This document shows, piece by piece, positions 37,216-41,295 of a stretch of DNA of 64,000 nt. The position numbers were made by a program, and so were the translations under genes. This DNA comes from Actinomycetes bacterium (lineage in GTDB: Bacteria > Actinomycetota > Thermoleophilia > RBG-16-64-13): NCBI GenBank assembly GCA_024637095.1, contig JAGXFV010000028.1, positions 62,001-126,000 on the forward strand, given 5' to 3'. Each line of letters opens with the position of its first letter. The first letter of the stretch is position 1. The notes beneath the pieces were generated by a model. That model was not told the origin of the DNA. It saw nothing but the letters and a program-made list of their open reading frames with translations, and ran no database searches.

Positions 37216-39693
37216 CTATTTGACCTCTTCGCCGACCAGTATCTCGGACCGGTCCAGCACCTCGCTGATAACGAGTTGGTCGCCGTCACGAGTCATCACA
37301 ACAGTGCTGCCCGAGGGGATCTCTCCCGAGAGCACCTTGTCGGCGATCATGTCCTCCACGTAGCGTTGGATCGCACGGCGCAGAGGCCGAGCGCCCATCG
37401 CCGGGTCGTAGCCCACCTCGACCAGGAACTCCTTGGCTTCCTGGGTGAGCTCCACATTGAGGCCGCGATCCTTGAGCCGATCGCGGATACGAGCCATCAT
37501 CAGTTCGACGATGCTCATGATCTGATCCCGGCTCAACTTGTGGAAGACGATGATCTCGTCGATCCGGTTGAGAAATTCCGGCCGAAACACTTTCTTGAGC
37601 TCGCCCATGACCCGGCTCTTCATCTCGCCGTAGTCCATGCCGCCCTCCATGATGGGCTCGCCGAAGCCGAGCACCTGGCCCTTGGAGATGGTGGCCGCAC
37701 CGATGTTGGAGGTCATGATCAGGATCGTGTTGCGGAAGTCGACCGTGCGTCCCTGCGCATCCGTCAGCCGTCCGTCCTCCAGAATCTGGAGAAGGATGTT
37801 GAAGACGTCGGGGTGGGCCTTCTCGATCTCATCGAGGAGCACCACTGAATAGGGACGGCGGCGCACCGCTTCGGTCAGTTGACCGCCCTCCTCGTAGCCC
37901 ACGTATCCGGGAGGCGAACCCACCAGCCGGCTCACCGCATGCTTCTCCATGTACTCGGACATGTCGATCTGCAGCAACGCGTCCTGGTCGCCGAAGAGGA
38001 ACTCGGCGAGGGTGCGCGCCAGTTCGGTCTTACCCACGCCCGAGGGGCCCAGGAAGACGAATGAGCCACCGGGCCGCTTGGGGTCCTTGAGCCCCGCCCG
38101 CGAGCGGCGGATGGCCTTGGAGACCGCGTTCAGTGCCTCGTCCTGACCCACCACCCGCTTGTGCAGCTCTTCCTCCATGCGGAGCAGCTTCTTCGTCTCG
38201 GCTTCGGTCAGCTTCACCACTGGGATGCCGGTCCACATGGCAACGATCTCGGCGATCTCGTCTTCGCCGATGGCGGCGCGGACGCCTTCCTCGTCGTTGC
38301 TCTTCCAGCGCTCTTCCATCTCTTTCTTCTCGTTGATCAGACGGCGCTCCCGGTCGCGCAGGTTGGCCGCCTTCTCGAACTCCTGCCCCTCGATGGCCGC
38401 TTCCTTTTCCTTGCGCACCGTCTGGATGCGCTCTTCGAGCTCGCGGTAGTCGGGCGGCGCGGTCATCGTCTGGATGCGTTTGCGCGATGCCGCTTCGTCA
38501 ACCAGGTCGACGGCCTTGTCGGGCAGAAAGCGGTCGCTGATATAGCGGTCGGCCAGGTAGGCCGCGGCGTCGATGGCCTCATCTGAGATGCTGATGCGGT
38601 GGTGGGCCTCATAACGGTCGCGCAGGCCCTTGAGGATCTCGCTGGTTTCTTCCACCGAAGGCTCACGCACCATTATCTGCTGGAAGCGCCGCTCCAGGGC
38701 CGCGTCACGCGCCAGGTACTTGCGGTACTCGTCCACGGTGGTGGCACCGATTGTCTGAATTTCGCCGCGCGCCAGCGCGGGCTTGAGAATCGAGGCTGCA
38801 TCGATGGCGCCCTCGGCCGCACCGGCGCCCACCAGGTTATGGATCTCGTCAATGAAGAGGATGATGTCGCCGCGCTCGCCGATTTCCTTCATCACCTTTT
38901 TCAGGCGCTCCTCGAACTCGCCGCGGTACTTGGAACCCGCGACCAGGGCGCCCAGGTCGAGCGTGAAGATCTGCTTGTCCTTAAGCAGTTCGGGCACATC
39001 GTGCTCGGCAATGCGCTTGGCCAAGCCTTCGACCACGGCGGTCTTACCCACGCCGGGCTCGCCGACCAAAACCGGGTTGTTCTTGGTGCGTCGCGAGAGG
39101 ATCTGCATGACCCGCTCGATCTCGGTTTGCCGGCCGACTACCGGGTCCAGCTTGTCTTCTTCGGCGTATTTGGTCAGATTACGGCCGAACTGCTCCAGCA
39201 CTTTGGAACCCTTCTTGCCGCCGGGCGCAGCGCCCTCGGTTTTCTGACCCCGGCGCGTGGGGCCGGAGAGAACGCGCATGACTTCCTGCCGGATGCGGTC
39301 GGCATCGGCGTCCAGGTCGTTGAGGATGCGGGCGGCGACGCCCTCGCTCTCACGAACCAGGCCGAGCAGGATGTGCTCGGTACCGATGTAGTTGTGGCCA
39401 AGCGATAGCGCTTCGCGCAGGGCCAGTTCCAGCACCTTCTTGGCTCGAGGGGTGAAGGGGATCTGACCTTGAGCCTCGTGCTCGCCCTCCCCCACGATGC
39501 GCATGATCTCTCCGCGGACGTCTTCCAGGGAAACTTCCAATCCGCTGAGCACACGGGCCGCGACGCCGTCGCCCTCGCGCAAGAGGCCGAGCAGCAGGTG
39601 CTCGGTGCCAATATAGTTGTGCTTCAGCTCCCGCGCCTCTTCCTGGGCGAGAACTACCACCTGTCGCGCGCGCTCGGTAAAGCGTTCAAACAT
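37216..39693 (-). CDS. clpC: AAA+ chaperone ClpC
   Basis: 825 residues. Clp_N repeats ~5-145, AAA-1 Walker [14 protein letters not shown] near 215, a UVR-like motif ([19 protein letters not shown]) in the M domain near 430, AAA-2 Walker [17 protein letters not shown] near 550, and C-terminal D2-small. It unfolds substrates for ClpP; in Bacillus it recognises arginine-phosphorylated proteins made by McsB. It lies immediately after the mcsA-mcsB pair. Confidence 0.96.
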
Positions 39694-39697
39694 CGTC

Positions 39698-40726
39698 CTA
39701 CTCTCTCCTGTCTAGCGTCCGGGCGGACCCGAAGGCCTGTCGCATCAATCGTGCGCGAACTTCGTCAAAACGGGGATCATCAACCTCGGCGTCGGGCTCC
39801 CCGAGTTCTTCCATGGCGATATGGCCGGGTTGCACTCGCCGCATGAGGGCGAAGGCGGAGGCGGGGGTGAATCCGTCGAGTCCGATCACTCCCATATCGA
39901 CTCCGCTCTGCACCGCGGATATCAGGCCGAGGGCTTCTTCGGCCGTCATCGACCAACCTTGCTGAGCCACGCCCAGGGAGCGCCCGACGTAATCCCGCAC
40001 TTGCACGGGATTCTCTTCGAGCAGCCGCTTTCTCATGGCGTGCTCCTGCTCACCCAGCTGGCGGGAAACCGCATCTACCTTCTCGGCGATGCGCAGTTCG
40101 GCCCTACCCATGCCCCCCTTGTTGGAAACTTGGAAAAGCCCACCAGCCCCGCCCCAGACCGGGCTAAGCGTGATGCCCTTGCCGATCAATTTCACCGCCA
40201 CCGAACCCAACTGGCCGGTGACCATCAAAGCCGGAAGGTGAACCAGCGAGTGGGCGCGCAGCCCGGTCCCGGCATCCTCGGCCCGTGCGGTGAGATAACC
40301 CCAGCGCTCGTCGTAAGCAAATCCCAGCCCGGACTCCAGAACGTCGTCCAACTCATCAAGCGTACTCCACAGACCGGACAGAACCTCGCCGGCGCGGGAG
40401 ACCATCAGCCGGATGTGGTCGCGGCCGTTGACCTCCAGCGAGGCGATGCCCCCGCGGTATAGGCCGAAGCCCTTCCAAGGATCGGTCTCGCGGGAGAAGA
40501 CGGGCGTCATCAGCCCGCGCTCAACCAGATAGGCCCGCAGTCCCGGGGAGAGCGAATCCATGGGCGTGAGTTCCCAATCGCCGGGATCGGCACAGGTCTC
40601 GAGCACCCTCTCGACCCGCTCGAGAAACTCGCTCAACTGAGCTTCTTCGGCGGCATGGGGAAACGGCAGCACCGAGTCGTTGCGCGACATCTCGAGCCCA
40701 CCCGCGAATACCAGGTCCGTGCTCAC
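39698..40726 (-). CDS. mcsB: McsB-like protein, probable inactive arginine kinase
   Basis: 342 residues from GTG 40726, coupled by 4-bp overlap to mcsA. The phosphagen-kinase fold is recognisable ([43 protein letters not shown]). The signature residues of active McsB are altered: the NEEDH motif reads NGRDH (residues 100-104), the CPTNVGTG loop reads RAEDAGTG with the Cys absent (148-155), the N-terminal SSRIRLARN reads EMSRNDSVL, and the VRGLYGEGSE region reads [12 protein letters not shown]. Family comparison is from memory. It is therefore predicted to be a pseudokinase adapter for ClpC rather than an arginine kinase. Confidence 0.8.
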
Positions 40727-41295
40727 TTCTCCTCCGCGACCAGTTCGGCCAACTCCGCGATGCGGTCACGCACCCCGGCGGCCTCTTCGTATCTCTCGTC
40801 ATCGACCAATTCCTTGAGCATGTGCTCCAGGCGCACCACCTCGCGGCGCTGCTCCAGGTCAGGCTGGTCATGCGACGGCTGCTTGCCCACGTGCCCCGCA
40901 GCTTCGCTTCCCCCGAGCGCCGCTTCGATATGACGGCTGAAGGCCTGATAGCAGGCAGGGCAGCCAACCATGCCCTTCTCCTCGACATCTTTGAGCGTGG
41001 AACCGCACACCGCGCACATCGACTTCCGGGACGAGGCCCGCGAATCAAACAGAGGCGCCGGACGGCTCAACAGCGAACCAAACATGCCGGCGAGGGCGGT
41101 GGGGACCGCAAAGAAGATATCGGCGTCCGTGCCGCCACCTGCCGCCTCCTCGGCGCAACTCTGGCAGAGATGCGCGTGGGCGAATTCCCCGTCCTCGATA
41201 CGGATGATGTGGATGGTGCCGGGTTCGGTGCCGCAGGAATCACACTCCTGGGCGTGGTCCTGACCGAGCTCCCATTCGGATCCGTCGGCGAACAT
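40723..41295 (-). CDS. mcsA: McsA-like zinc-finger/UVR protein
   Basis: 190 residues. Four CxxC pairs: CDSCG near 18, CQSCAEE near 44, CAVCG near 94, CPACY near 112. A C-terminal UVR motif (LKELVDDERYEEAAGVRDRIAEL) near 155-182 contacts ClpC. McsA activates McsB and regulates ClpC in Bacillus. It has no CtsR gene before it. A 5' UTR hairpin (41321-41336) precedes it. Confidence 0.9.
   Translation of the reverse strand: MFADGSEWELGQDHAQECDSCGTEPGTIHIIRIEDGEFAHAHLCQSCAEEAAGGGTDADIFFAVPTALAGMFGSLLSRPAPLFDSRASSRKSMCAVCGSTLKDVEEKGMVGCPACYQAFSRHIEAALGGSEAAGHVGKQPSHDQPDLEQRREVVRLEHMLKELVDDERYEEAAGVRDRIAELAELVAEEK

Follow-up and report, generated by a model that had tools for sequence, protein, structure and literature searches.

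Can McsB serve ClpC without acting as an arginine kinase? Work on B. subtilis has not settled whether the adaptor and kinase roles of McsB are separable (PMC5506225, PMC7235348). We analyzed a 64,000-nucleotide stretch of actinobacterial DNA (the window) encoding an McsB homologue that appears to lack a working active site. A natural McsB of this kind, held by selection beside McsA and ClpC, makes the question directly testable. We propose, with a probability of roughly 0.6, that this protein (pseudo-McsB) is an McsA-bound pseudokinase that serves as a scaffold or adaptor for ClpC.

The locus and its distribution

Pseudo-mcsB lies at 39698..40726 on the minus strand (342 amino acids, GTG start). 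Its product matches the PF00217 profile with 102 bits (cut-off 22.4) and falls below the two NCBIfam McsB cut-offs (153.3 against 500 bits and 190 against 385; NF053707 and NF002194). The first 4 bases of the gene overlap the end of mcsA (40723..41295, minus strand), and clpC (37216..39693, minus strand) starts 4 bases past its end. McsA (190 amino acids) has a UVR motif and four CxxC pairs, which make up two zinc fingers; its NF053706 score, 98.1 vs 210 bits, is below the curated cut-off. ClpC (825 amino acids) has both GTEH motifs in its N-domain. The gene order mcsA-mcsB-clpC, claimed in a first-pass annotation of the window, is thus present here, and it recurs in 16 of 16 family loci from named records. 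The wider order lysS-mcsA-mcsB-clpC-radA-disA is found in the family loci to the extent of their contigs. The annotation had also proposed looking for a second McsB, and a profile search of the window's genome found no other PF00217 protein, leaving pseudo-McsB as the sole member.

The DNA upstream of these genes has some features of its own. Two family loci carry extra DNA separating lysS from mcsA, 5.4 kb in L075 (3982-9416) and 1.2 kb in L076 (1885-3053). In the window, the lysS-mcsA gap contains a hairpin, GCCCGC-GGGA-GCGGGC followed by TTTT (41336-41317, minus strand; read by eye), just upstream of the mcsA ribosome-binding site. It is a possible attenuator. An Rfam search of the whole window returned one tRNA only, and the hairpin had no match. 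A perfect TTGACA-18-TATAAT promoter match (43614-43585, minus strand) sits at the start of the listed greA ORF, which probably places the real start of the gene further downstream.

Within the class, PF00217 proteins were found only in the window's own family. A profile search detected one in 17 of 249 sampled genomes, all of them in the family, and in none of the 231 sampled genomes outside it. The single family genome (of 18) without a match is 78% complete. The 17 positive genomes carry 18 pseudo-McsB copies. One genome bin, G008, has two differing copies (L009 and L019), each with an mcsA; because its contamination is 7%, this bin is probably two organisms. The stop in the L009 match is at the protein end, and L009 was omitted from the family alignment A1. 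The family's named records are Actinomycetota genomes assembled from metagenomes; several bear the label Thermoleophilia or Gaiellales, and one is Actinobacteria bacterium RBG_16_64_13. Four CxxC pairs are present in McsA at all 16 named-record family loci. In a class sample of 120 genomes, strong McsA matches occurred in 14 genomes, only in the family, and weak matches in four non-family genomes covered just the C-terminal part of the model, where the UVR motif lies.

Our B. subtilis control genome, which we assumed would match the PF00217 and CtsR profiles, matched neither; the control copy may lack the locus. The sensitivity of the PF00217 search was judged instead from the 33 of 296 phylum-sample genomes in which it found a match (the match in G253 was not fetched).

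Loss of the kinase active site

We found that the four catalytic motifs are altered as the first-pass annotation had reported. Active-site residues (R29, R31, E120, E121, R125, C167, R176, R207 and E212) are numbered as in B. subtilis McsB. The SSRxRLARN motif (SSRIRLARN in the annotation) reads AGGLEMSRN (residues 8-16; 40679..40705, minus strand); the equivalents of R29 and R31 are lost, and only R34-N35 (R15-N16 here) survives. NEEDHIR has become NGRDHIR (residues 100-106; 40409..40429, minus strand), the change from NEEDH to NGRDH (residues 100-104) removing E120 and E121 and leaving R125. In the remnant of CPTNVGTGLR (residues 148-157; 40256..40285, minus strand), RAEDAGTG replaces CPTNVGTG (residues 148-155) and C167 is lost. 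A shortened lid loop, PVWGGAGG (residues 189-196; 40139..40162, minus strand), replaces RGxYGEGSE (RGLYGEGSE in the annotation). The sequence here begins SPVWGG, with S188 aligned to R207; E212 is also lost, and four residues are deleted.

These losses are common to the family. R29, R31, E120, C167, R207 and E212 are kept in 0/18 aligned family copies, the E120 position is G in 18/18, and the same 4-residue lid-loop deletion is present in 18/18. Because the same losses recur in all 18 copies, and none of the 231 genomes sampled outside the family has a PF00217 protein, the pattern is beyond chance. The E121 position is E in three copies, D in two and another residue in 13. A set of 19 intact McsBs has 45 columns with at least 90% invariance; of these, 30 are kept in the family, 13 are lost and 2 are intermediate. 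Nine of the 13 lost columns fall in the four catalytic motifs. Fourteen rows from other Actinomycetota families (the window's family and a second eroded family, f16, set aside) keep R29 (14/14), R31 (13/14), R207 (14/14) and E212 (13/14), and 12 of the 14 keep at least 8 of 10 key active-site residues.

Of the lost positions, E120/E121 and E212 have catalytic roles in the known phosphagen-kinase mechanism. We take R29, R31, R125, R176 and R207 to be the five ATP arginines of guanidino kinases, as in arginine kinase. A catalytic role of the cysteine C167 is described in published work. B. subtilis McsB gave no phosphorylation in vitro after any one of the substitutions R29K, R31K, R34K, R125K, R176K, R207K and R337K (PMC7235348).

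Could the protein still phosphorylate arginine, using catalytic residues from elsewhere in its own sequence or from McsA? R34 is kept in 18/18 copies, R125 and R176 in 15/18 each and E121 in 3/18, in line with such an activity. However, the losses come together, taking the catalytic acids, the cysteine, three arginines and part of the lid, and three of the arginine substitutions that singly kill the B. subtilis enzyme (R29K, R31K and R207K) are at positions lost here. We regard a retained kinase as very unlikely. The distribution of low-molecular-weight phosphatases (LMWPc) also argues against it. A search for a YwlE phosphatase, proposed in the first-pass annotation, found no LMWPc of the YwlE type in the window's genome. 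LMWPc was present in 3/18 family genomes and 9/19 f16 genomes, compared to 12/14 McsB-bearing genomes outside the families f1 and f16. As a sign of lost tagging this contrast is only suggestive, because LMWPc is not YwlE-specific and some genomes are incomplete. Pup ligase was found in 0/18 family genomes; therefore, pupylation is no substitute for arginine tagging in the family.

We compared these losses with the phylogeny of McsB. The tree included 64 of 66 rows (fragments L097 and L104 were dropped) and was built after the columns of the catalytic motifs had been taken out. The window's family formed one clade (support 100/100). Its nearest neighbours were seven McsBs of other actinobacterial families, mostly intact, with weak support (90/75); the deep branching order is uncertain, with long branches and skewed composition. 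The f16 family, in which 29 of 35 genomes have a PF00217 protein, was a separate clade (support 100/100) of 27 rows, 6 intact, 16 eroded and 5 intermediate. Active sites in f16 are graded, from 10/10 down to 2/10 key residues kept (L055-L059, L099, L100 and others), and its McsA CxxC pairs are intact wherever McsA is in reach. One more actinobacterial row, L061, is eroded. On the best tree, at least 5 changes are required to account for the intact and eroded labels, a count in which 6 of the 64 rows were unscored. Because of this count, and because f16 is a separate clade, the kinase site would most simply have been lost on the stem of the window's family and separately in f16. Outside the phylum, a Verrucomicrobiales McsB homologue (L084, 6105-6947) lies between mcsA and clpC, has a largely eroded active site with 4/10 key residues kept, and sits on a very long branch.

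Some candidate indicators of kinase loss did not discriminate between lineages and were rejected. The first-pass annotation had pointed to the lack of ctsR. The gene is indeed absent from the genome, and a profile search found CtsR in 0/18 family genomes. A link to kinase loss did not hold up, since none of the 33 McsB-bearing actinobacteria sampled from other families has CtsR either, even where the active site is intact; its absence is uninformative. The two GTEH motifs of ClpC, presumably phospho-arginine sites, are kept in readable actinobacterial ClpC whether the lineage is an intact or an eroded one, and count neither for nor against. In that comparison L067 goes out of frame part-way, L082 and L083 are misread frames, and the first site of L084 reads GAEH. 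The R96-like loop residue of McsA, a position taken from a reading of the loop and not from an alignment to B. subtilis McsA, is variable in intact lineages too. Finally, R190, R194 and R337, which concern phospho-arginine-linked oligomers of B. subtilis McsB (PMC8370763), are mostly missing in intact-site actinobacterial McsBs as well.

Fold, selection and possible role

The first-pass annotation had claimed that the fold persists and had proposed a structural alignment as a check. The nearest solved structures are McsBs of Geobacillus, B. subtilis and S. aureus. A model predicted from the family alignment (mean pLDDT 85.3, pTM 0.85) matched 6fh3_A with a Z score of 31.8 and an rmsd of 3.0 (316/342 residues aligned), in agreement with the claim. 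Because the match extends over 316 residues, the phosphotransferase and dimerization domains are both predicted to be kept.

Contacts described for the S. aureus complex are partly retained. In that complex the C-terminal zinc finger of McsA touches the McsB loop Y147-Y153, and heterodimers are joined by an R262-E277 salt bridge (PMC12467219). By alignment, the loop corresponds to YDERWGY in pseudo-McsB (residues 138-144; 40295..40315, minus strand). The inter-subunit salt bridge corresponds to R249 (39980..39982, minus strand; B. subtilis R272) and E264 (39935..39937, minus strand; B. subtilis E287). In B. subtilis numbering, G162-Y163-L164 in the contact-loop region, R272 and E287 are invariant in 18/18 family copies. 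A second S. aureus contact, F261-R271, is not kept: G248 is invariant, and W occupies the R position (R281 equivalent) in 16/18 copies. Near the C-terminus, FDEVRA (residues 320-325; 39752..39769, minus strand) is a remnant of the R337-D-x-x-R341-A phospho-arginine pocket, with D338, R341 and A342 kept and R337 lost.

We found that pseudo-mcsB is maintained under purifying selection. In three genome pairs, dN/dS for mcsB was 0.060 (window vs congener), 0.156 and 0.139. The corresponding values were 0.097, 0.121 and 0.127 for mcsA, 0.026, 0.027 and 0.038 for clpC, and 0.053, 0.065 and 0.101 for radA; mcsB evolves faster than clpC and radA in all three pairs. A decaying gene or an assembly artefact would fit the deep divergence of the protein, whose best NCBIfam McsB score is 190 bits against a cut-off of 385. 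However, the frames are open in 17 genomes from different projects, dN/dS is well under 1, and the mean column identity of pseudo-McsB across genera is 64%. This family-wide conservation led us to reject decay, to which we assign a negligible probability.

The protein thus combines a kinase fold, lost catalytic residues and a sequence held by selection. Because purifying selection acts on a protein that throughout the family lacks catalytic and ATP-binding residues yet keeps the fold, the conclusion that the ORF at 39698-40726 (minus strand) encodes an McsB pseudokinase is well supported. Judged from the residue losses, it would be unable to bind ATP or to phosphorylate arginine in the manner of McsB.

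What might such a pseudokinase do? Twenty-two residues reach at least 94% conservation within the family yet are rare in intact McsBs. They include E98, G101, P189, W191, G193 and G196 round the former active site, and a G71/M73/T74 stretch. Their conservation is the evidence for the main rival to an adaptor, in which the old kinase cleft has been rebuilt as another binding site or enzyme. Such a protein would keep McsA and ClpC as partners but would now be a ligand sensor or catalyze a different reaction. We consider a rebuilt cleft unlikely: no known alternative motif was recognized in pseudo-McsB, and of the ATP arginines R125 and R176 are each kept in only 15/18 copies and R29, R31 and R207 are gone.

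We favour instead a scaffold or adaptor for ClpC. Pseudo-McsB, which keeps the McsB fold and its C-terminal dimerization domain, would most likely pair with McsA through the second zinc finger of McsA. The resulting McsA-McsB complex, co-translated with ClpC and with pseudo-McsB as its scaffold, would bind ClpC. It would then deliver clients to ClpC or gate ClpC activity, in either case without phospho-arginine tagging.

The adaptor role is supported because McsA and ClpC are co-conserved and because kinase-inactive McsB differs from absent McsB in B. subtilis. Published work describes a kinase-independent effect of McsB C167S: the half-life of MgsR was 12.3 min with kinase-inactive McsB and 17.7 min with McsB absent (PMC7235348). 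The same paper indicates ClpX, rather than ClpC, for MgsR; therefore, these data support a general kinase-independent adaptor role and not ClpC delivery specifically. Against this, an older view is that the adaptor activity of B. subtilis McsB and its stimulation of ClpC depend on kinase activity (PMC5506225). The first-pass annotation had suggested a pseudokinase acting as a ClpC adapter. Its pseudokinase part stands on the catalytic loss, the fold and selection. The adapter part is consistent with the operon, McsA, the contact loop, the salt bridge and the C167S results, and from these we infer McsA binding, ClpC binding and an adaptor role. An altered activity, the other suggestion in that annotation, is the less probable reading.

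The close spacing of the genes, with a 4-base overlap of mcsA and mcsB and only 4 bases from the end of mcsB to clpC, would also suit a protein that delivers no substrates and chiefly keeps ClpC (or McsA) in check or in place. It might, for instance, be a brake that is translated together with ClpC and released on stress. In unstressed B. subtilis, McsB is held by ClpC through translational coupling and ClpC inhibits the McsB kinase (PMC5506225). That regulation, however, mostly concerns an active kinase, and we think a brake quite unlikely.

A broader proposal, which we judge evenly balanced, is that McsB can do without its kinase role, which Actinomycetota have given up on more than one occasion (fully in the window's family, by graded steps in f16), with a kinase-free McsA-McsB-ClpC scaffold kept under selection as a phospho-arginine-independent adaptor system. 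If this is true, the scaffold role of McsB would be a function in its own right. The graded f16 series offers intermediates for the question of separability. We found no earlier description of a natural McsB pseudokinase in the open-licence literature.

Comparison with known systems

Pseudo-McsB resembles the McsBs of Bacillota (B. subtilis, G. stearothermophilus and S. aureus; 6fh1, 6tv6, 8gqd) in its full-length fold with a dimerization domain, its mcsA-mcsB-clpC operon, its McsA-contact loop, its R272/E287 pair and its D338-x-x-R341-A remnant. Unlike them, it has a shortened lid loop and has lost R29, R31, E120, C167, R207 and E212; it lacks R190, R194 and R337, it has no ctsR, and it scores far below the NCBIfam McsB cut-offs.

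Other Actinomycetota McsBs (for example L037, L039, L045 and L050), some of them the nearest relatives in the tree, have the same operon without ctsR. In contrast to pseudo-McsB, their active-site residues are mostly intact. The eroded f16 McsBs (L055-L059 among them) have likewise lost kinase residues and have McsA and ClpC alongside. However, f16 lost different residues, has no lid deletion and includes intact members in its clade.

The closest experimental parallel is B. subtilis mcsB-C167S, an McsB without kinase activity that keeps an adaptor role in the view of its authors (PMC7235348). That allele is a laboratory point mutant, whereas the loss described here is natural, involves multiple residues and is common to a whole family.
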